The notes under the pieces: generated by a model | Told to the model about the DNA's origin: nothing | The model's database searches: none | The model's input: the letters and a program-made list of their open reading frames with translations, nothing else | DNA from: Erythrobacter litoralis | GTDB taxonomy: Bacteria > Pseudomonadota > Alphaproteobacteria > Sphingomonadales > Sphingomonadaceae | Length of the DNA stretch: 64,000 bases | Assembly: GCF_029760855.1 (NCBI RefSeq) | Contig: NZ_SOSI01000002.1 | Coordinates: 124,001 to 188,000, forward strand | Direction: 5' to 3' | In this document: positions 24,065 through 36,504 of the stretch, one piece after another | Layout of the letters: each line of letters begins with the position of its first letter | Position numbering within the stretch: position 1 is the stretch's first letter | Position numbers and translations under genes: made by a program

Positions 24065-24814
24065 TCAGGTTTCGATCTTTTGGCGAACCGCTTTGAGATC
24101 GCTCTCCTTATCGACATCGACAGCAGCGAGACCGTTATTGGCGGGCACCATTGCCGCCTTGATGCCGGCACGAAGACCCAACCGACTGATGGCCTCCTGA
24201 AGGTCGAGCCGTTTAAACAACATCATGACAAGCGTAGACAAACCGAGTTTTGCGGCGATACGCCATGGCTGCTTGCGATCGGCTTCGACCATTTGCCACA
24301 AGCCAACAGCCGCCTGAGCGCGTTCGGTTCGCAACAGGAACAGATTGCATCCTGACCAGTCGCCATCGGCGAAAGATAGATAAGTCCGCGCCGACCCGGG
24401 CATCGCAGATTGGACACGGTCTCTATGCGCCATCAGTATTGCGACGTCCGCATCTTCAGGTGCGCTATCGAGAAAATCGTGAACCATATCCGCGTCCAGC
24501 AGCGCATGGTCGCTGGTAGTGATGATTGTCGGCGTGCCTATTATCTCAATCGCAGCAGCAACACTCTTGCTCGGTCCTGGTTCGGCTGCCATCGCCTCGC
24601 ACCCCTGCCCGATTGCCAAATGCCGGACGCGAGCATCGTTTGTTGACACTACGATCCGCTTGATCCCAGCCGCCCTCAGCGCAGCTACGACACGAGTTAG
24701 CATCGGCTGATCGCCGATTTCGATCAAAGACTTGTGCGAGACGCCATGAGCTTCGGCAAGCCCGTCGCCCTCTGCTCTCGTCCCGGCAAGGATTAGGGCG
24801 GCGATCTTCCTCAT
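24065..24814 (-). CDS. MobA-like NTP transferase (nucleotidyltransferase, GT-A fold)
   Basis: A 249-residue protein with the sugar/alcohol-phosphate nucleotidyltransferase pattern: an N-terminal AALILAGTRAEGDGLAEAHG loop, the following Lys (HKSLIEIGDQPML) and an acidic site at ITTSDHALLDADMV. The signature of true molybdenum-cofactor MobA (LAGG with conserved Arg-Met-Gly) is not preserved. Activation of a sugar or alcohol phosphate (for example CDP-linked) for the adjacent transferases is more likely, though inferred. The ATG at 24814 overlaps the flippase stop as ATGA. The C-terminal half includes an unusual segment (LMMLFKRLDLQEAISRLG). Ends opposite rne. Confidence 0.65.
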   Translation of the reverse strand: MRKIAALILAGTRAEGDGLAEAHGVSHKSLIEIGDQPMLTRVVAALRAAGIKRIVVSTNDARVRHLAIGQGCEAMAAEPGPSKSVAAAIEIIGTPTIITTSDHALLDADMVHDFLDSAPEDADVAILMAHRDRVQSAMPGSARTYLSFADGDWSGCNLFLLRTERAQAAVGLWQMVEADRKQPWRIAAKLGLSTLVMMLFKRLDLQEAISRLGLRAGIKAAMVPANNGLAAVDVDKESDLKAVRQKIET

Positions 24815-26133
24815 GCCCCACCCCGTGAGCAAAGGATAGCGCGGCGAACGACGATCGCGAAAGCAAGGTAGATCACCGCGAATGCAAGAGCCACCGCCCA
24901 ACTCACTCCGATCACACCAAAGCCGACGAATAGCGCGGTAGATAAGGTCATTGCTGCTACTCCGAACAAACGAACGCCTAGTGACCAATGCGCCTTTCCG
25001 TGAGCGTGAAGGACCGGCTCGAATGCAACCGCAGCCAGGTCAAAAGACGCTGCGATCGCAAGAGGCAGCAATAACGGTGCCCCTTGGGAAAATTCCGGTC
25101 CCCCGATAAGTTCGAGAACTTGCCGACCGACCAACAATGCGATCAGGACGATGAGAGCTCCTGCCCCGAACACAATCAGGCTTATGCGGGTAATAAGCCT
25201 CTGAAATTCGGCCTCAGGAGCCTGGTGTTTCTGTCGATTCACTTCCGGGTAGATCGCCTGCGTTACGAGCGTAGCGAGCTTACTCAAAGCTTTCGCCAAT
25301 TGATCCGCAATCCGGTAGACACCGGCCGCACGGGTGCCGAGAAAATAACCTACAGCCAGCAGCGGGCCATGTTGCAGAACAGCCTGAATAGTTTGGCTTG
25401 CATAAGTCACACCGAGGAAGCCAAGTAATCCAGGGTTTTCTCTTACGGTTCGCCGCCATTGCGTTATGTCGGAGAACTTCAGGTTCCCTTTCTGGAGGCG
25501 ATAGGCAATCGCCCATAATAACCCCGCCGAGAACAATTCGATTGCCCCCCAAGCGAGAAGGAATCGAACGACTGTGGCGCCCGTATTCCATATATAGAGC
25601 GCAGCAAAGAGGCGCGCCACGGGCGTGATCGCTCCTGCTGCTACCGCCAAATCATATCGGTCGAGAACGCGGATGATTCCTGTCGGCGCGGTTCCGCGAG
25701 CAAACAGGAGCGTCGCAATGAATAAGAAAGCTGCTGTCACATAGCGAGGGTTGAGCTCGAGCTGGTCGCCGAAACCGTAAATGACAATACCGGCAAAAAG
25801 CGTACCTAGAACCGACCCGATGATGTCGATTGCCCCTCCAAATACAGCGAGGCGCGCAAACCGATCTTCCTTTTTGGCTGTAAGGTGGCGCGCGCCGAAC
25901 CGAACGATCGTTTGCCAGGTTTGAAAACCCGCGATGGCAACCATCGCCTGCGCCGTGCCGAATATCAGCGAGAAGTGCCCGAACCCTTTCAGTCCGAGGG
26001 ATCGAGCGAGTATGGCGAGGTAGACCAGGCTGACGATCGCGGCGAAGCCCTTGCCGCCAAGCAGCCACCCGATGTTTCTGATGATCCGGCGCAGCCCCTC
26101 AGAAGCGTGAATATCTTCCAGCTTTCCCGCCAT
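24811..26133 (-). CDS. Oligosaccharide flippase (polysaccharide-biosynthesis export family)
   Basis: A 440-residue inner-membrane protein with about 12-14 helices of the Wzx/MOP type. Examples are the N-terminal GGKGFAAIVSLVYLAILARS with GLKGFGHFSLIFG, and the mid-protein FLGTRAAGVYRIADQLAKAL with LATLVTQAIYPEVNRQ. It probably flips a lipid-linked polymer precursor. I choose the ATG at 26133 (MAGKLEDIHASEG), because the open frame further upstream overlaps the divergent gene's promoter region. Translationally coupled to the nucleotidyltransferase. Lower G+C than the flanking core genes. Confidence 0.82.
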   Translation of the reverse strand: MAGKLEDIHASEGLRRIIRNIGWLLGGKGFAAIVSLVYLAILARSLGLKGFGHFSLIFGTAQAMVAIAGFQTWQTIVRFGARHLTAKKEDRFARLAVFGGAIDIIGSVLGTLFAGIVIYGFGDQLELNPRYVTAAFLFIATLLFARGTAPTGIIRVLDRYDLAVAAGAITPVARLFAALYIWNTGATVVRFLLAWGAIELFSAGLLWAIAYRLQKGNLKFSDITQWRRTVRENPGLLGFLGVTYASQTIQAVLQHGPLLAVGYFLGTRAAGVYRIADQLAKALSKLATLVTQAIYPEVNRQKHQAPEAEFQRLITRISLIVFGAGALIVLIALLVGRQVLELIGGPEFSQGAPLLLPLAIAASFDLAAVAFEPVLHAHGKAHWSLGVRLFGVAAMTLSTALFVGFGVIGVSWAVALAFAVIYLAFAIVVRRAILCSRGGA

Positions 26134-26181
26134 TACGTGGCCTTGGACGAAGTGCTCGGGCAAGACAAGTCGGTCCACCGT

Positions 26182-26209
26182 TTGCGGTTTGCGGGACACA
26201 TCGTATGTA
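26182..26209 (+). promoter_or_regulatory. Candidate promoter for the glycerophosphotransferase-like gene pair
   Basis: In the 90-base gap between the divergent flippase and transferase genes, TTGCGG (26182-26187) and TATGTA (26204-26209) are 16 bases apart, resembling a sigma-70 type promoter. The start codon at 26224 would be about 8 bases from the expected transcription start, giving a very short leader. That weakens the call. Confidence 0.3.
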
Positions 26210-26223
26210 GCCGCCCTCGACTT

Positions 26224-27369
26224 ATGGAACGCGAACCCTTGCGCCTGGCCTTTCTCTTCATCGCCGAAGCCTATCAGGTATATCATGCGGCCGCGGTGAT
26301 GTTCGAATTGATGAGGCGCTCGGATATCACGGTCGACGTGTTCTACATCGATCCGGCGTCACCGGCTGCGCTCGAGCGATTGCGAAAAACGCACAATGCG
26401 GCGTCATTCGAAATGACCCGTCTGCCGAGCGGTCTTGCCGGGGCCGCCATCCAGTCGGTTCGCATCCTCGGTCTGGCGAAACCGCAGGTGCTTAGAAAAA
26501 ATGAAGCTAAGCTGAGAAAGTACGACGCCATCGTTTCGACTGAGGACGGAATTACGGCCCTGTTTCGAGATTTGCAGGAGGCCAATCGCCCGGCGCGCAT
26601 CTTGATCACGCATGGAGCGGACGCACGAGCAGTCCCGGATCGCCAGAAACGCAGAGACTGCGACCTTATTCTTGCCAAGGGCCCACGGGACGTCGCCCTT
26701 CATCTCGAGAAAGGTCACTCGGAGCCAGGCAAGATCGTCGCGGCAGGCTATCCAAAATTCACCTCCCTTTTAGCTTTGGGCCGTGACGACAAGCCCCTTT
26801 TCGCTAACAGCAATCCTACCGTTCTGTACAACTCACACAAGGAACCGCGCCAACGCAGCTGGGATCGGTTCTTCAAACCGATGGTGCATCTCTTCGAAGA
26901 ACATACAGATCGCAATCTTGTCGTGGCTCCCCATATCAAGTTGTTTCGTCGGAGACCCTCCGGCTATCGTGCCAGGATCGAGTCGCGCACTGCCGATAAC
27001 ATTAAGATCGATCTTGGCTCCGATCGATTGCTCGACGGTACGTATCTCGAGCAAGCAGATATCTATGTCGGTGACGTGAGCAGTCAGGTGTACGAGTTTC
27101 TTGCAAATCCAAGACCCTGCATTTTTCTTAACGCGCACAAGGTTCAGTGGCAGCAAGATCCGGCCTACGCCATGTGGCATTTGGGCGAAGTGATTGATGA
27201 TCCTCAAGACCTGCTTCCTGCCATTCGGCGCGCTCCTAAGCTGCATTCGGAGTTCGTCGCGCGCCAGAAAGAGGCGGCAGAGCGTTCCTTAGGCGATACG
27301 TCGCCAAACTCCGTTGTTTACGGTGCCGATCTCATAGAGACGTTCGTGCGTAATTGGCCGAAAGGATAA
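26224..27369 (+). CDS. CDP-glycerol glycerophosphotransferase-like protein (first of a tandem pair)
   Basis: A 381-residue protein with a GT-B-like layout resembling the teichoic-acid glycerophosphotransferase family. It has an N-terminal domain (LRLAFLFIAEAYQVYHAAAV), a central His-Gly element (ILITHGADARAVPD), then VLYNSHKEP, VVAPHIKLFRRR and the C-terminal YVGDVSSQVYEFLANPRP. In that family the His residues and the DxSS-like motif bind the CDP-polyol donor; extending this here is inference. No signal peptide or membrane helix; probably cytoplasmic or peripheral. ATG at 26224. Divergent from the flippase and followed by a related paralogue overlapping its 3' end. Confidence 0.55.
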   Translation: MEREPLRLAFLFIAEAYQVYHAAAVMFELMRRSDITVDVFYIDPASPAALERLRKTHNAASFEMTRLPSGLAGAAIQSVRILGLAKPQVLRKNEAKLRKYDAIVSTEDGITALFRDLQEANRPARILITHGADARAVPDRQKRRDCDLILAKGPRDVALHLEKGHSEPGKIVAAGYPKFTSLLALGRDDKPLFANSNPTVLYNSHKEPRQRSWDRFFKPMVHLFEEHTDRNLVVAPHIKLFRRRPSGYRARIESRTADNIKIDLGSDRLLDGTYLEQADIYVGDVSSQVYEFLANPRPCIFLNAHKVQWQQDPAYAMWHLGEVIDDPQDLLPAIRRAPKLHSEFVARQKEAAERSLGDTSPNSVVYGADLIETFVRNWPKG

Positions 27370-28553
27370 CGAACATTCCTAAGGTCCTTTTTCTTTTCAA
27401 TCACGATGCAGCGCATCAGGCAGCGCACATTGCCGGCATCATGGCTACTCTTGCCGAATATCGGCGGGATTGGCGAATTGAGGCCGCAGTAGGAACGCCT
27501 GATATCGAGAGGCAGGTTCGCGCTCTTGTTCCGGCGGATCAGCAAACGAAAATAGAATGGCGATCACTTGATCTTTCGGGGACTCTCGATGCTGCTTTGA
27601 CGCCATTCAATTCTTTGGCACCGGTGAAGCGTCTTGCGCGCCTTCGTCGATCGATTAGCCTTTTCGAATCTGCCGATCTGGTTGTTTCGCCGGAAAGAAC
27701 CTGTCTTGCTATCAAGCGGTTATTGATCATAAAGCATAGAAGCTCCCCGCCGTTCGTGTTCGTGCCGCACGGGGCAGGAGACCGAAGCGTAACCTATCAT
27801 CCCGATCTTGCGGGGTTCGACTACTTCCTGGTGAGCGGTCGAAAAGTGAAAGACGAATTCGTCGCTCACGGAATTGCCCAGGCTGACCAGTGCTTCATCA
27901 CGGGATACGCAAAATTCGACACCGCTTCGCCCAAAAGTTCCAACAAGCTGTTCGAAAACGACCGACCGACCGTCGTTTACAATCCCCACTTCGATCCGGC
28001 GCTCTCGTCATGGTATGATCATGGACCTGACATCCTGCGCCTTGCCGCTCAAATTCCCGACGGTTTGAATATTATTTTTGCGCCGCATGTAATGCTCTTC
28101 AGAAAGAAATTGCATGTTTCGCTCGAGCATCGCGCAGTTCGGCTAAGGCCCGAGATACCGCAGGCAGCCATCGATGCGCCGAACATCCTGATCGATACGG
28201 ACAGTCCAAGTTTGTTCGATATGACCTATACCTCTGCAGCCGATTTCTACCTCGGTGACGTCAGCAGCCAGATTTACGAGTTTCTGCGCACTCCGAAACC
28301 AAGCGTTTTCATAGATGCAAACGGTCACGGTAAAGAAGCGTACCAGTTCTGGCAGAACGGGCCAGTCGTAAATTCAGGCGTGGAGGCACTGACGAAACTG
28401 ATCGATGCAAATGAATGGAGCACCACCTTTGTCGCTAAACAGAAGGCGCTTTTCGAATACACGATGGACATCGATCCTAAGCATTCGGCGAGCGAACGCG
28501 GTGCTAGAGCGCTTGAAGAAATTCTTGCGGCTGAGATACTAGTGGATGCATGA
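27354..28553 (+). CDS. CDP-glycerol glycerophosphotransferase-like protein (second of a tandem pair)
   Basis: A paralogue of the preceding gene, about 392-399 residues. Shared elements are a Pro-His-Gly box (FVFVPHGAGDRSVTYHPDL), VVYNPHFDPALSSWYD, IFAPHVMLFRKK and FYLGDVSSQIYEFLRTPKP. The first residues (IPKVLFLFNHDAAHQAAH) look like a true N-terminus, yet no ATG or GTG lies there. The frame begins with TTG at 27354, inside the previous gene, or could start at ATT 27375, which has AAAGGA 9 bases upstream. The next in-frame ATG would remove about 30 conserved-looking residues. The 3' end overlaps the convergent HAD gene by 50 bases. The substrate is unknown, probably a polyol-phosphate or sugar-phosphate polymer. 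Confidence 0.55.
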   Translation: MAERITNIPKVLFLFNHDAAHQAAHIAGIMATLAEYRRDWRIEAAVGTPDIERQVRALVPADQQTKIEWRSLDLSGTLDAALTPFNSLAPVKRLARLRRSISLFESADLVVSPERTCLAIKRLLIIKHRSSPPFVFVPHGAGDRSVTYHPDLAGFDYFLVSGRKVKDEFVAHGIAQADQCFITGYAKFDTASPKSSNKLFENDRPTVVYNPHFDPALSSWYDHGPDILRLAAQIPDGLNIIFAPHVMLFRKKLHVSLEHRAVRLRPEIPQAAIDAPNILIDTDSPSLFDMTYTSAADFYLGDVSSQIYEFLRTPKPSVFIDANGHGKEAYQFWQNGPVVNSGVEALTKLIDANEWSTTFVAKQKALFEYTMDIDPKHSASERGARALEEILAAEILVDA

Positions 28554-29181
28554 CCTCCCATCCACGAGACTGAGCAGACAGACGCTTTCGTTCGGACCTT
28601 GAAACGAAAACCGGTTCGTCAGCGAAATCCAGCATTGGCGCATCTGCGAAACTGTCGCTTACAAACTTAATATGATCGAATGCGTCATCGCCCTGTTCTG
28701 CAAGCCAACACCGAACGCGAGCCAATTTTTCCGTTCCATAGCAATTCGAGCCCCATATCTCACCATTCTCCCAAATTGTGGCAACGACGTGCTCGATACC
28801 CAAGCGCTCCGCGAAACGGCGCGAATAAAACTCGAACGCTGCGGTAGCGAGTAGCACAGTTGTGCCCTCCTCAAGATCGGAACGAAGCATTTCAACCGGA
28901 CCGGTCATGAAGTCACCGGTCTCAAGACGCTTTACGAATGATTGTCCGAGGTATTCCAGTTCGTCTGCGGAAACGGATCCGATCATCAGGCGCATACCGA
29001 AGGTTTTCAAAGCACTTCTTGAGCAGAAACCGATCTTGTAGCCAGCCATAGCGAGCAGCCAAAGCGGCAGGAGCAATAGACGAACCGGTGCACGGTTTCG
29101 TGCGGCAAATACAAGGAAGGGCGTGAATGTGGCGCGGCGGACTAGCGTCTTGTCGAGGTCGTAAATTGCCAGCTTGCGCAT
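28504..29181 (-). CDS. HAD-IB family phosphatase
   Basis: A 225-residue haloacid-dehalogenase hydrolase of the SerB-like subclass IB. Motif I is DLDKT at 8-12 (nucleophile Asp8, acid Asp10), motif II is TVLLATAAFEF and motif III/IV KFVSDSFADAPML. A hydrophobic stretch (about residues 30-50, VRLLLLPLWLLAMAGYKIGF) suggests a membrane-associated cap, as in HAD-IB proteins linked to lipid or polymer synthesis. A phosphomonoesterase role on an alcohol or sugar phosphate for the neighbouring locus is inferred. It converges with, and overlaps by 50 bases, the transferase gene on the plus strand. Confidence 0.72.
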   Translation of the reverse strand: MRKLAIYDLDKTLVRRATFTPFLVFAARNRAPVRLLLLPLWLLAMAGYKIGFCSRSALKTFGMRLMIGSVSADELEYLGQSFVKRLETGDFMTGPVEMLRSDLEEGTTVLLATAAFEFYSRRFAERLGIEHVVATIWENGEIWGSNCYGTEKLARVRCWLAEQGDDAFDHIKFVSDSFADAPMLDFADEPVFVSRSERKRLSAQSRGWEVMHPLVSQPQEFLQAL

Positions 29182-32443: not shown

Positions 32444-33706
32444 TCAGGGCATTTCGGACGGGCTTCGCGTCTCGAAATGCTCGATCATCGTTTGCAGAAT
32501 GTTTCTAAGCGAACGCTCTTGTTCGCTTACTCTGTCTTCCAAGTCGCTCAAGCGCCGGTCCAACCTATCATCGTAGGATGGACGGGCTGGTTGGGCGTCT
32601 GCGGTGTTTTCAATTAATTCCCTCAATGCATGCAGATGCGCGTCGCGTTCTGCGAACGCCAGTTCGATCGCATCGAGCTGCTCTTGAATCTCTTCCACCT
32701 TACGCAGGTCCGCGTAATCGTCACTCCCAGATATCTCCTCTGTAGCACTAAGCTCTTCCTCGACCTTGTCGGCTGAAGATTTGGTATCCTCGATATCGGA
32801 CGAGATAGCTTCGTCGGTCCGACCTTCTACTTCCTGAGCATCCTCGCCCCGGCTTGTGGCCAGATTTTCCCGACTTTCAACAGACCGATGCGCGTTCCCG
32901 TCGGGAGACATTTCCTCCAAGACGGAATTCAGCATCGCCAAATCTAGCCGGTCTGCTTGCTCGATGCTTCCAAGAAGCAGAAGCCGGGTCATAACCTGAT
33001 TGATTTTGCGCGGAATACCGCCGGTTACTTCGCCCAACCGATGCCAAAGCTCGCCATCGAATGTTGGCAAACCGCGCCATCCAGCCCGCGTGAGTCGGTG
33101 CAGGACATAAGGCTCGATCTCTTGCGCGCTCATTGCTTCCAGATGATGCGACGCGATAATCCGCTGGCGAAGCTCCTCGAGCCGGCCCGCCTCCGCCAAT
33201 TCGTCCCGAAGACGGGGTTGGCCGAGCAAAACCACCTGGATTATCGGCTGGCCGGACAGGTGAGTGTTCGATAGCATCCGAAGGGCTTCCAGCGCATCTA
33301 CGGACAGCGCTTGAGCCTCGTCCACAAAAAGCATCGTTCGCCGACCTTCGAGAGCCTCGTTCCGTAAAAAGCGCTCGATGGTAGCCTGCGCCGTATGCCG
33401 TTCCTGAGCCTTATTGAGACCGAAGCTCGATGCGACGGCGAACAGCATCGCTTCGCCTGTAGACGCGCTGGCCGCGACCTTGCCGATGGTTACATTGGCG
33501 GAAGCCAATTCGTTAACGAAACGCTCGACAAGAATTGTTTTACCTGCACCGATTTCACCGGTGATAATGACGAACCCTTCTTGCTGCTGGAGCCCGTAAT
33601 CCAAGTGACTCAAGGCTTTACGATGCGTGGCGGATTGGAAATAGAACTCGGGATCCGGAGTCAGCCGGAAAGGCGCTTTGTCGAATCCGTAGAATTCCTC
33701 GTACAT
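32444..33706 (-). CDS. Exosortase A (XrtA) system-associated ATPase
   Basis: A 420-residue AAA ATPase of the ExeA/GspA-like type found in PEP-CTERM/exosortase loci. The N-terminus MYEEFYGFDKAPFRLTPDP is the hallmark of this subfamily. Walker A is GEIGAGKT at 50-57 and Walker B is MLFVDEAQAL (Asp129-Glu130), followed by sensor-like VVLLGQPRLRDEL. The last 130 or so residues are acidic and predicted coiled coil (EEIQEQLDAIELAFAERDAH), longer than in the minimal family. A likely role is energising or regulating polymer export. It follows the decarboxylase with a 54-base gap. Confidence 0.87.
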   Translation of the reverse strand: MYEEFYGFDKAPFRLTPDPEFYFQSATHRKALSHLDYGLQQQEGFVIITGEIGAGKTILVERFVNELASANVTIGKVAASASTGEAMLFAVASSFGLNKAQERHTAQATIERFLRNEALEGRRTMLFVDEAQALSVDALEALRMLSNTHLSGQPIIQVVLLGQPRLRDELAEAGRLEELRQRIIASHHLEAMSAQEIEPYVLHRLTRAGWRGLPTFDGELWHRLGEVTGGIPRKINQVMTRLLLLGSIEQADRLDLAMLNSVLEEMSPDGNAHRSVESRENLATSRGEDAQEVEGRTDEAISSDIEDTKSSADKVEEELSATEEISGSDDYADLRKVEEIQEQLDAIELAFAERDAHLHALRELIENTADAQPARPSYDDRLDRRLSDLEDRVSEQERSLRNILQTMIEHFETRSPSEMP

Positions 33707-33760
33707 GGCGGCTTCCTTATCAGAAACCGCTTCTTCGGAAGCGCCGACATCGTAGGTGTC

Positions 33761-34987
33761 TCAAACAAGGATTTCAGCAGCGGGGCCATGTCCCAAAAAG
33801 GCACTCGGCGATGCGCTTGCGCCATATGCTCCAGCACAGAAAACCGCCACGATGTCACCTACCCCCGCTTTTGGCATACGCACCTTGTCAGCCAACCTGT
33901 CGAGCGGCGTACATAGGCGCCCCACGATATTGACCGTCTCTTCCGCTGGCTTATCGAAGCGCGTCGCGATGCCGACGGGGTAATTTCGCCTTACGACCGT
34001 TCCGAAATTGCCTGAGGCCGCCAGTTGGTGGTGCAGACCACCGTCCGTAATGAGGTACGTTTCGCCATAACTCTCCTTGCGGTCGAGTATGCGTGTCAGA
34101 TACACGCCCGCCTCGCCGACAAGGTATCGACCGAGTTCTATGTGAAATTCGGTATCGGACAAAGTTGATGGAAGGTTCTGCATCCCGACCGAAATACCTT
34201 GTCCGAGCCTTGCAAGGTCAAGAGGCTTGTCGCCTGGAAAATATGGGATGCCAAAGCCGCCACCCATATTGAGCAGGGGAATACCGATGCCGGAATCGCG
34301 CGCGATCTGATCGGCGAGAGCTAATACGTTCGCTTGTGCTTCGAGAACCGCCTGCGCGTCGAGTGACTGGCTGCCGGTGAAAATATGCAGGCCTCGCCAT
34401 TCGCAGTCCTGTGTCGCCAACTCCCGAACCAGTGCGGGGATGCGTTCCGCATCGATGCCGAACGGTTTCGCGCCCCCACCCATTTTCATGCCCGAGCCGC
34501 GAAGCTCGAACCTGGGATTGACCCGTATTGCCAGGCAGGGCGTTAGATTGCCCCTTCGACCGATTGCCAAAGCACGTTCCGCTTCGTGCTCGCTCTCCAG
34601 ATTGATCGTAACGCCAGCTTCGATTGCGGCGGCAAGTTCGTCATCGCCCTTACCAGGCCCTGCGAAACTGATCGACGATGGTTTCATACCGCTTGCGAGC
34701 GCCATCTCCAATTCGCCTCGGGAAGCGATATCGAACCCGTCGACCAGCGCCGCCATCCGGTTTAGCAATGGTGCGAAGCTGTTTGCCTTGATGGCGTAAT
34801 TAAGCCGTATTGACGCTGGCAAATGCTCACGCAGATCGGAGATACGCTGCGCGATCATATCCGCGGAATATACGAATAGCGGCGTCGCACCGGCTTCGGA
34901 AACAAGCGAGCTCACTGGTCTGCCGCCTATCGCGAGTTCGCCAGTCTGGTCAGCAAACCCCGGCGGTATCGGGCCAACCGGTTTCAC
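33761..34987 (-). CDS. PLP-dependent decarboxylase, exosortase A system-associated
   Basis: A fold-type III (alanine-racemase-like) amino-acid decarboxylase related to diaminopimelate/ornithine decarboxylases. The Schiff-base lysine is Lys67 (YAIKANSF). Other segments are LEMALASGMKPSSISFAGPG, HIFTGSQ, the glycine-rich phosphate site NMGGGFGIPYFPGD, and near the end VFCAGAYGAS. In exosortase-A loci this enzyme is paired with an AMP-forming ligase and an acyl carrier protein. The GTG start overlaps the ligase stop by 4 bases (GTGA). The actual substrate is not established. 408 residues. Confidence 0.88.
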   Translation of the reverse strand: MKPVGPIPPGFADQTGELAIGGRPVSSLVSEAGATPLFVYSADMIAQRISDLREHLPASIRLNYAIKANSFAPLLNRMAALVDGFDIASRGELEMALASGMKPSSISFAGPGKGDDELAAAIEAGVTINLESEHEAERALAIGRRGNLTPCLAIRVNPRFELRGSGMKMGGGAKPFGIDAERIPALVRELATQDCEWRGLHIFTGSQSLDAQAVLEAQANVLALADQIARDSGIGIPLLNMGGGFGIPYFPGDKPLDLARLGQGISVGMQNLPSTLSDTEFHIELGRYLVGEAGVYLTRILDRKESYGETYLITDGGLHHQLAASGNFGTVVRRNYPVGIATRFDKPAEETVNIVGRLCTPLDRLADKVRMPKAGVGDIVAVFCAGAYGASASPSAFLGHGPAAEILV

Positions 34988-36504
34988 AATGAATACTCCG
35001 CGATCAAAGCAGCTCTGTCGATCTTGCCGTTGGGGTTTATCGGCATTTCAAACCGCCAATGTATCGCATCCGGTTGCATGAACCCCGGCAATTCTCGCTT
35101 CAGTGCGCCCCGTAAAGCCTCATCGGCATCGCGACCTCCCAGTGTCCGCACGATCAGCACTATCCCCTGCCCCTTCTCTTCATCCGGGATCCCGAAAGCG
35201 ACCGCATCTGCCACGAACCCGGTCGCCACTGCCGCCGCTTCTATCTCTTGCGGACTGATACGATTACCCATGGTCTTGATCATGGCATCGCGCCGTCCAG
35301 CGAAATACAGCAGCCCGTCTTCATCAGAAATGACCCTGTCGCCCGAATAGACTGCTAAGCCGCCATAGCGCGAAGCAGGCGGCGCCGGTTTGAATCGTTC
35401 GGCGGTCCTCTCTTCATCCTGCCAATAACCTTTCGCAACCAGAGGGCCACAGTGCACCAGCTCGCCTTCTTCCCCCGGTTGGCAAAGGCTATTGTCGTCT
35501 CGAACCACGAGTATCTCTGCAAACGGTATAGCCGATCCCATTGAAGTCGGATGGCTATCGACAAGATGCGGCGGAAGATAGGTCGAACGGAACGCCTCCG
35601 TCAGTCCGTACATCGGGTAGATTTCCGTCGATGGGAAGACGGACTGCAGACGATGGACAAGATCTGTCGTCAATGCACCGCCGCTATTGGTGATCCGCCT
35701 CATGCAATCGATCGCAGCTTCAGGCCAATCGACCTCCGTCAACTGTCGCCAAAGCGGAGGAACAGCCGCAAGCGTCGTAATGCCGTACTTCTCGCATGCC
35801 TTCGGCACATCGCGGGCGAAAAGATAATCGAACGGCACCGCGGATCCGCCCGAGTAGAATGCGCTGAGGATCTGGTTCTGGCCGTAGTCGAAGCTAAGCG
35901 GCAAGACCGCCAGTGTACGGTCGGAGGGAGCAAGACCGAGATATTGCACCACCGCCGCCGCGCCGAGCCACATATTGGCATGGGACAACACGACCCCCTT
36001 CGGTGCTCCTGTCGATCCACTCGTATAGAGGATCGCGGCGATCGCGTTTGGATCGACCGCAGACAGCTGCGCTTTATCGAACTCGCGGGCCGATCCTAGC
36101 GCTCGCTCTTCCTCGACAAGTTCGCAATTTGCAGGAACGTCGTCGGCTTCGAGCAAGGTCAACCGCGATGGTGTTCCCACGATAAGCCGCGCGCCGCTAT
36201 CGCGAAGGATATGGGCAACCTGGGCCCTTTTGAGCAATGGGTTGATAGGCACATGTATCATTCCAGCTCTCGCTGCCGCGAGCGGCATGAAGCATGTCAA
36301 TTCGCCTTTCGCCGCCCAACTCGCCACTCGATCGCCCGCTTGCCCTTTTGAAGTCAGCCAGGACGCGAGGCGCCCGACATTCCGGGAAAGGTCGTCATAA
36401 GTAAGGGATCGGTCACGAAGTATCAGCGCGATATCGCTCGGCTTGCCCCGCTCGGTAAGGTGATCGAGTGGAAAGGCTTCGGGGTTTGGCAAGCTGCTAT
36501 CCAT
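34984..36504 (-). CDS. AMP-forming acyl-CoA/amino-acid ligase, exosortase A system-associated
   Basis: A 506-residue ANL-superfamily adenylating enzyme. The P-loop is ILYTSGSTGAPKGVVLSHAN, with the A5-like YPMYGLTEAFRSTYLPP, the hinge region YSGDRVISDEDGLLYFAGRR and the catalytic Lys near the C-terminus (MPINPNGKIDRAAL). Together with the divergent acyl carrier protein (36620) it probably loads an acyl or aminoacyl group onto the carrier Ser. First gene of the minus-strand cluster ligase-decarboxylase-ATPase. The family is consistently seen in exosortase A loci; the product is unknown. Confidence 0.88.
   Translation of the reverse strand: MDSSLPNPEAFPLDHLTERGKPSDIALILRDRSLTYDDLSRNVGRLASWLTSKGQAGDRVASWAAKGELTCFMPLAAARAGMIHVPINPLLKRAQVAHILRDSGARLIVGTPSRLTLLEADDVPANCELVEEERALGSAREFDKAQLSAVDPNAIAAILYTSGSTGAPKGVVLSHANMWLGAAAVVQYLGLAPSDRTLAVLPLSFDYGQNQILSAFYSGGSAVPFDYLFARDVPKACEKYGITTLAAVPPLWRQLTEVDWPEAAIDCMRRITNSGGALTTDLVHRLQSVFPSTEIYPMYGLTEAFRSTYLPPHLVDSHPTSMGSAIPFAEILVVRDDNSLCQPGEEGELVHCGPLVAKGYWQDEERTAERFKPAPPASRYGGLAVYSGDRVISDEDGLLYFAGRRDAMIKTMGNRISPQEIEAAAVATGFVADAVAFGIPDEEKGQGIVLIVRTLGGRDADEALRGALKRELPGFMQPDAIHWRFEMPINPNGKIDRAALIAEYSL

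Follow-up and report, generated by a model that had tools for sequence, protein, structure and literature searches.

What would a cluster that pairs two transferases of the teichoic acid type with an activating enzyme and a lipid flippase make in an alphaproteobacterium? Such a cluster occupies positions 24065–29181 of the stretch examined here, a 64,000-nt window of contig NZ_SOSI01000002.1 from Erythrobacter litoralis, and comprises genes for a nucleotidyltransferase (NTP), a flippase (FLP), two transferases (TrA and TrB, jointly Tr) and a phosphatase (HAD). A sequence-only reading of the window took it for a free-standing surface-polymer locus. The gene neighborhoods described below do not bear this out: they tie NTP and FLP, and less evenly Tr, to ceramide and head-group genes. 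The interpretation preferred here sees in it an alternative head-group cassette belonging to an anionic phosphosphingolipid pathway of the Caulobacter type, with a Wzx-like flippase as the end of the cassette, and from gene content we put its probability at somewhat better than even, roughly 0.57. The cluster is akin to an alternative end of the CPG2 pathway rather than a strict member of it, since searches for CpgD and CpgA did not find them. Some relatives carry the TagF-like set at a position that in others is taken by a CpgD/CpgA-like set.

The sphingolipid pathway and the window genome

In the accessible part of PMC11324152, the Caulobacter crescentus locus CC_1168–CC_1152 includes the nucleotidyltransferase CpgD (CC_1152), a CofC-like NTP (CC_1153), ceramide genes (CC_1154 and CC_1165–1162), LptG2/F2 (CC_1155/1156), a phosphoesterase (CC_1158), a CDP-alcohol transferase (CC_1159), a ceramide kinase (CC_1160), a CDP-DAG-synthase-like protein (CC_1161) and a flippase (CC_1166). 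The same text calls CC_1167 probably unrelated and gives its mutant a cofitness with spt of 0.57. The available sections of PMC12275187 report that Caulobacter CpgD makes CDP-glycerate, the proposed donor for ceramide diphosphoglycerate, and themselves draw the analogy to TagD/TagF. CpgB is described in the accessible part of PMC10331486 as a ceramide kinase with a GGDG motif.

The window genome resembles this system, as far as the accessible text of PMC11324152 and PMC12275187 describes it, in its SPT-, bCerS-, kinase- and CpgC-like genes and its flippase gene, in an NTP of the group found, by gene order, at the CC_1153 position, and in the logic of an activated donor. Its SPT-like gene (C4:513619) has 50% identity to the query and scores 432.6 bits, the other homologue reaching 163.9 bits, and its bCerS-like gene (C2:401839) has 42% identity and 272.3 bits; both query proteins were chosen by domain and gene order. 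Next to the bCerS-like gene (L263) are two open reading frames (ORFs), one matching an LptF-like query (29%) and the other likewise permease-like. The kinase and CpgC-like genes are adjacent on contig C5 at ~221.8–223.6 kb, their equivalence to CC_1160/CC_1161 being drawn from gene order, and are on a different contig from the SPT-like gene. Where Caulobacter has CpgD and CpgA, the window genome differs: CpgA-like queries gave no match in it, and in the 36 congeners gave none in 27 and a short one of at most 26.3 bits in nine. Nor was a full-length CpgD-like gene found, the best match in the window genome (39 bits) covering only residues 4–75 (72 aa) of the query, a CpgD-like protein identified by locus context. 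By these searches, the front end of the pathway is predicted to be present, the usual last enzymes are not found and the TagF-like cluster, HAD included, is there instead.

A divergent full-length CpgD-like match (51 bits, 30%) does occur in another genome, at G030:C1 ~1471–1475 kb, with a weak match to the CDP-alcohol transferase (21.8 bits) about 3 kb away; the two are possibly part of another type of cassette. The CpgC-like protein (L117:9096–9989, L169:9762–10664) matched nothing in Pfam and nothing meaningful in PDB; a likeness to TAM41 is not a result of these searches.

TrA and TrB as TagF-like transferases

Pfam searches gave no match for either transferase. Profile A1, an alignment of 30 Tr proteins in which H130, G131, G175, H237, D284, S286 and S287 are invariant (30/30 rows), retrieves Cps3D from PDB first (E 0.0014), then TarL and three TagF sequences (E 0.03–0.044); these weak matches make up the top five and are followed by unrelated proteins at E ≥0.43. 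Comparison of A1 with six PF04464 members by hhalign gives 98.8% probability and E 5.5e-17 over 241 columns, two of the six rows (L268, L270) also weakly matching the Tr profile. The PF04464 model itself (cut-off 22.1 bits) is passed by the Tr proteins of G118, G151, G262, G290 and G335, five of the nine full-Tr genomes among 289 of the class, and missed by those of G235, G316, G331 and the window genome. Together, the PDB matches, the PF04464 passes and the hhalign result point to TrA and TrB (TRANSFERASES) as a predicted remote branch of the TagF/TarL/Cps3D (PF04464) superfamily. The TagF-like character that the sequence-only reading had assigned to them is thus upheld, and an unrelated family was rejected on the hhalign match. 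What they share with wall teichoic acid polymerases and Cps3D is profile-level homology and a set of motifs; they differ in length, at just 381–399 aa, in falling under the Pfam cut-off, and in being Gram-negative and partly associated with sphingolipid genes. A scan of viral contigs with TrB returned two pattern matches, neither of them confirmed.

A maximum-likelihood tree of 71 Tr sequences places TrA and TrB, which are 32% identical, in different supported clades, which excludes a fresh tandem duplication. The TrA partners of six loci (the window, Qipengyuania polymorpha, Pontixanthobacter rizhaonensis, Novosphingopyxis baekryungensis, Novosphingobium colocasiae and Sphingomonas jeddahensis) group in a single clade (99/89). 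Their second partners are split. The copies from the window, L082 and L140 group with TrB proteins of the genus (28 rows, 100/100), and those of L103, L125 and L129 form a separate clade (100/99). Such pairs may have been assembled on more than one occasion.

In one genome of another family of the order (G038), a Tr domain and a Wzx-like flippase are joined in a single 820-aa ORF (L040:13150–15612), which adjoins NTP and metallophosphoesterase genes, a natural link of transfer and flipping.

Conservation of the cluster

A TrA query finds homologues in 28 of 61 relatives and, counting the window genome, in 20 of 37 genus genomes. Twenty stretches were fetched around the matches, 12 of them from congeners. 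The contiguous NTP–FLP–Tr–HAD set is kept in 11 of these 12, the exception being G016, so the grouping of activating enzyme, phosphatase and flippase with the transferases was rightly called, and, G016 apart, no dispersal of the genes was seen in these congeners. Around the 11 sets, rne and sdhB are both present in nine, sdhB alone in one and neither in one. Within the genus, Tr and a full-length cluster-type NTP (≥369 bits against profile A2) coincide exactly: 20 genomes have the two, and the remaining 17 have neither (Fisher 6e-11). High A2 scores are to be expected here, since the genus supplies 13 of the profile's 16 rows. Tr lies within ~2.6 kb of NTP in 19 of the 20 genomes with both, which argues that the cluster is not a matter of chance.

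Further out, Tr (≥250 bits) occurs in at least nine and full-length NTP (>150 bits) in at least 32 of the 289 genomes of the class. These are lower bounds, as the scan scored the best candidates per genome (up to nine for Tr and six for NTP), and weak Tr matches in G312 and G325 (60–66 bits) were dropped before counting. Eight of the nine Tr genomes, the window genome included, also have NTP (hypergeometric P 8e-8, uncorrected for relatedness). Eight Tr loci were also read in other families of the order, and three of them (G053, G058, G038) show NTP together with further pathway genes.

NTP also ties the cluster to ceramide loci by phylogeny. In the NTP tree, the window NTP groups with those of CPG2-type loci in a clade of 31 rows (100/98), the same group that holds NTPs adjoining bCerS-like genes; several long branches are present in this tree, away from the pairs discussed below. 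Profile A2, whose 13 genus rows comprise 12 cluster NTPs and a paralogue from the window genome, matches TTHA0179 (2dpw) in PDB at 5.7e-39, with KdsB chains next, and the 3-phospho-D-glycerate guanylyltransferase 7p97 at 3.8e-5. NTP is thus a sequence-profile relative of CofC, the guanylyltransferase and TTHA0179, the last being the closest solved structure, and differs from them as a family of its own with the motif R-T-x5-D-G-x-x-S-G-C-N, kept in 14 of the 16 rows of A2. FLP shares its Pfam family with the Wzx/Polysacc_synt flippases and differs in its partners, which are NTP and lipid head-group genes, with no Wzy among the five genes. HAD homologues also occur near CpgD/CpgA-like genes in G037, G045 and G051.

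In two genomes of the class, G331 and G235, the order runs CpgC-like protein, kinase, CDP-alcohol transferase, metallophosphoesterase, HIT, LptF, LptG, fatty acid hydroxylase, bCerS-like GNAT protein and NTP, in agreement, the hydroxylase excepted, with CC_1161 to CC_1153 as given in the accessible part of PMC11324152. Elsewhere in both genomes, FLP homologues and Tr adjoin genes for an AMP-ligase (aasR-like) and an epimerase (cerR-like), these equivalences being by domains. In G323, a CpgC-like gene comes after those for an AMP-ligase, an epimerase, ACP and an SPT-like protein.

Exchange of gene sets between relatives

A profile search of genome contigs with the NTP alignment found at least 447 relatives. 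The best 80 of these were read as named loci, mostly from Novosphingobium, Qipengyuania, Erythrobacter, Croceicoccus and Sphingomonas, several apparently from the same genomes as congeners already in the set. Besides NTP, the recurrent members are FLP (sharing the locus in 65 of the 80), a CpgD-like nucleotidyltransferase, HIT, a CDP-alcohol transferase (CpgA-like), a DAGK-type kinase (CpgB-like) and the CpgC-like protein. Among these best 80, 37 loci have CpgA-like genes only, 27 Tr only, ten both and six neither; some contigs are short, so absences are soft. Tr matches of at most 600 bases were dropped before the tally, and L132 is therefore counted under neither. The CpgD-like gene follows this division: 30 of the 37 CpgA-like-only loci have it, none of the 27 Tr-only loci, all ten with both and none of the six with neither. 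Kinase and CpgC-like genes accompany Tr in 14 of the 37 Tr-bearing loci. Where both sdhB and rne are visible (20 loci), 13 have the Tr set, four the CpgD/CpgA set, two both and one neither.

Two pairs of loci show the difference directly. L115 (EaN21-2) and L134 (F72), both titled Novosphingobium profundi, are collinear at 74–84% DNA identity, at which they can hardly be one species. The genes enclosed by flippase and kinase differ, being CpgD-like, Tr, HIT and CpgA-like in one locus and TrB-like and GT4-like in the other, and the exchanged stretches gave no blastn match to each other at 1e-20. In the second pair, Q. huizhouensis (L121) and G022 (L044), the flanks are 91% and 79% identical and the loci differ over the whole interval between the HAD end and the NTP start, which takes in the flippase. 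The NTPs of each pair are sisters in the tree (100/100 for L115 and L134, 100/98 for L121 and L044), indicating that NTP stays as its neighbors change.

The rne–sdhB site of the cluster carries other genes in congeners without Tr, of which 14 of 17 were read (G002, G012 and G028 were left out). In 11 of the 14, the rne–sdhB site holds a D-Ala-D-Ala-ligase-like ATP-grasp gene related to that of L063, a second cassette of the window genome described below, and six of these 11 have the second ATP-grasp gene as well. This seems to be a site at which different envelope cassettes are exchanged.

Proposed pathway and alternatives

In the proposed scheme, the kinase would phosphorylate ceramide to ceramide-1-phosphate, which the CpgC-like enzyme would then process. 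From a small phosphate compound, which may be a polyol phosphate or resemble phosphoglycerate, NTP would make an NDP donor, and TrB and TrA, in either order, would add phosphate-linked units onto the lipid. HAD would trim or recycle a phosphate, a place that elsewhere a metallophosphoesterase perhaps takes. FLP would then flip the finished lipid to the periplasmic side, for outer-membrane export. What is shown is gene content and homology, from which donor, acceptor, chain length, order and product are inferred. We infer that NTP activates a small phosphorylated compound, and phosphoglycerate or another small phosphate is as likely a cargo as a polyol. The stronger proposal of a "sphingo-teichoic" lipid, in which TagF-like enzymes of some sphingomonads would build a teichoic-acid-like, phosphate-linked chain directly on ceramide phosphate for a Wzx-like protein to flip, with head-group cassettes exchanged between relatives, is a speculative one that we consider rather unlikely.

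Several observations weigh against a head-group cassette. The cluster of the window genome lies on another contig than its SPT-, bCerS- and kinase/CpgC-like genes, and for this genome the pathway link would run through relatives and co-occurrence. The genes of relatives were equated with those of Caulobacter by order and domains, not by sequence, and genomes are not independent, their relatedness weakening the P values above. The ten loci with both sets indicate that replacement is not strict; their Tr genes belong to other clades than TrA and TrB. NTP and Tr are far apart in G016, whose rne–sdhB site has just HAD–FLP–NTP, and G151 has Tr without NTP. Besides those of G235, G331 and the window genome, six class-wide Tr loci were read. 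Five of them (G118, G335, G151, G290 and G316) showed no recognizable ceramide or head-group gene beside Tr; in the sixth, G262, a CpgD-like gene and HAD are ~6 kb from Tr. Among the eight order-level loci, G045 shows just FLP, G039 and G056 just HAD, and G050 and G051 none of the query set. The window genome also has a paralogous NTP and flippase that keep company with ATP-grasp and glycosyltransferase genes.

Some of these points would suit a teichoic-acid-like surface polymer, for which NTP would make a CDP-polyol, one Tr would prime and the other polymerize on an undecaprenyl-linked acceptor, and the Wzx-like protein would export the product. The TagF-like superfamily, the Wzx-like flippase, the GT4-type gene of many relatives and the five class-wide loci without pathway neighbors all fit such a polymer, as do the two GT4-like genes and other glycan-type ORFs around Tr in G316 and the glycan-type ORFs around Tr in G262. 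Within the five genes, however, Pfam and NCBIfam searches recognized no Wzy, ABC exporter or initiating transferase, the NTP belongs to the group of ceramide loci, and in L103, L108, L125 and L134 Tr stands between the flippase and the lipid kinase; a polymer seems improbable on balance. The sequence-only reading had also noted that no classical glycosyltransferase, Wzy or ABC exporter is present, which is correct for the five genes, none being recognized among their proteins, but does not extend to the congeners: in six of the 11 read, a ~1.1-kb gene of apparent GT4 type lies between TrB and HAD (Pfam agrees for L044, the one searched against it).

That the cassette decorates a glycerolipid instead, for example a phosphatidyl head group, with the kinase acting on diacylglycerol, would agree with the kinase matching just general Pfam kinase families, DAGK_cat first. 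This is made very unlikely by the position of the CpgC-like gene, which 18 of 20 non-genus relatives having it (all but G038 and G048) keep at most 1.5 kb from an SPT-like gene, and by the GGDG motif of the ceramide kinase CpgB, as described in the accessible part of PMC10331486, which is also visible in the kinase of the window genome. A glycosphingolipid appears about equally remote. TagF-like enzymes share a GT-B-like fold with glycosyltransferases, and TrA and TrB might accordingly be GT-B enzymes moving a sugar from an NDP-sugar. Their scores to PF04464 are remote, TrB has a weak NCBIfam match to TIGR04396, surface carbohydrate biosynthesis (E 0.05, 12.8 bits, cut-off 125), and loci with the TrA–TrB pair are without the GT4 gene that many TrB-only loci carry. 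Yet the HG, GY-K, APH and GD-SSQ motifs of Tr find their counterparts in PF04464 members, five genomes have homologues above the cut-off of that family, and neither transferase matched a Pfam glycosyltransferase family.

If a TagF-like pair does replace CpgD/CpgA in Qipengyuania and its kin, as the preferred head-group cassette would have it, sphingolipid head groups would be modular and teichoic acid chemistry would have a Gram-negative sphingolipid counterpart, with steps readable from natural exchanges such as that between the two genomes titled Novosphingobium profundi. Among the open-licence papers listed by text searches, none announces a role of TagF-like transferases in sphingolipid synthesis in its title or the opening of its abstract; subscription literature was outside this scope.

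Organization of the locus

All five predicted ORFs were confirmed within the cluster, which is flanked by rne and by a gene matching the succinate dehydrogenase iron-sulfur subunit (sdhB). They form two divergent arms and a convergent phosphatase gene, with overlaps of 4 bases between NTP and FLP, 16 between TrA and TrB and 50, convergent, between TrB and HAD. Coordinates in the table are those of the likely starts.

Table. Features of the cluster in the window, and congener loci with an ATP-grasp gene at the corresponding site
Feature	Position or loci	Strand	Basis
NTP, MobA/CofC-like nucleotidyltransferase, 249 aa	24065..24814	-	Pfam NTP_transf_3 58.1 bits, cut-off 27
FLP, Wzx/MATE-like lipid flippase, 440 aa	24811..26133	-	Pfam Polysacc_synt 55.1 bits, cut-off 28.2
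FLP/TrA divergent intergenic region, 90 bp	26134..26223	.	Coordinates
TrA, TagF-like transferase, 381 aa	26224..27369	+	Profile A1, hhalign, 6-row clade
TrB, TagF-like transferase, 399 aa, TTG start	27354..28553	+	32% identity to TrA; 28-row clade
HAD, HAD-IB family phosphatase, 225 aa	28504..29181	-	Pfam HAD 80.5 bits, cut-off 27
Tr-less congeners with the ATP-grasp gene at the rne–sdhB site	L285–L293, L296, L302		

The gap between FLP and TrA likely holds the promoters for both arms. HAD additionally scores 93.1 bits with NCBIfam TIGR01490, under the cut-off of 98.3. The G+C content of the cluster is 55.0%, against 60.7% for the window. No tRNAs were found in the window, and the repeats in the cluster are just the motif stretch shared by TrA and TrB and weak inverted pairs; these scans thus gave no mark of integration.

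A second NTP and Wzx-like flippase pair occurs in the window genome on contig C4 at ~280–285 kb (L063, 5963–11256), partnered by two ATP-grasp proteins (one sugar-transfer-associated, one D-Ala-D-Ala-ligase-like) and a GT4 glycosyltransferase, and is probably another envelope cassette. Its NTP was considered as the true CC_1153 counterpart and rejected, as it falls in a separate clade (100/99) whose exact place is blurred by long branches.

The gap between rne and NTP is just 48 bases in the window; L031, L041, L044, L045, L047 and L048 have a small methyltransferase-like ORF there. A few kilobases past sdhB, at 32444–36504 of the window, lie two genes matching XrtA/PEP-CTERM-associated models, an ATPase and a decarboxylase, together with a further AMP-ligase-like ORF, which places an exosortase-linked region near the cluster.

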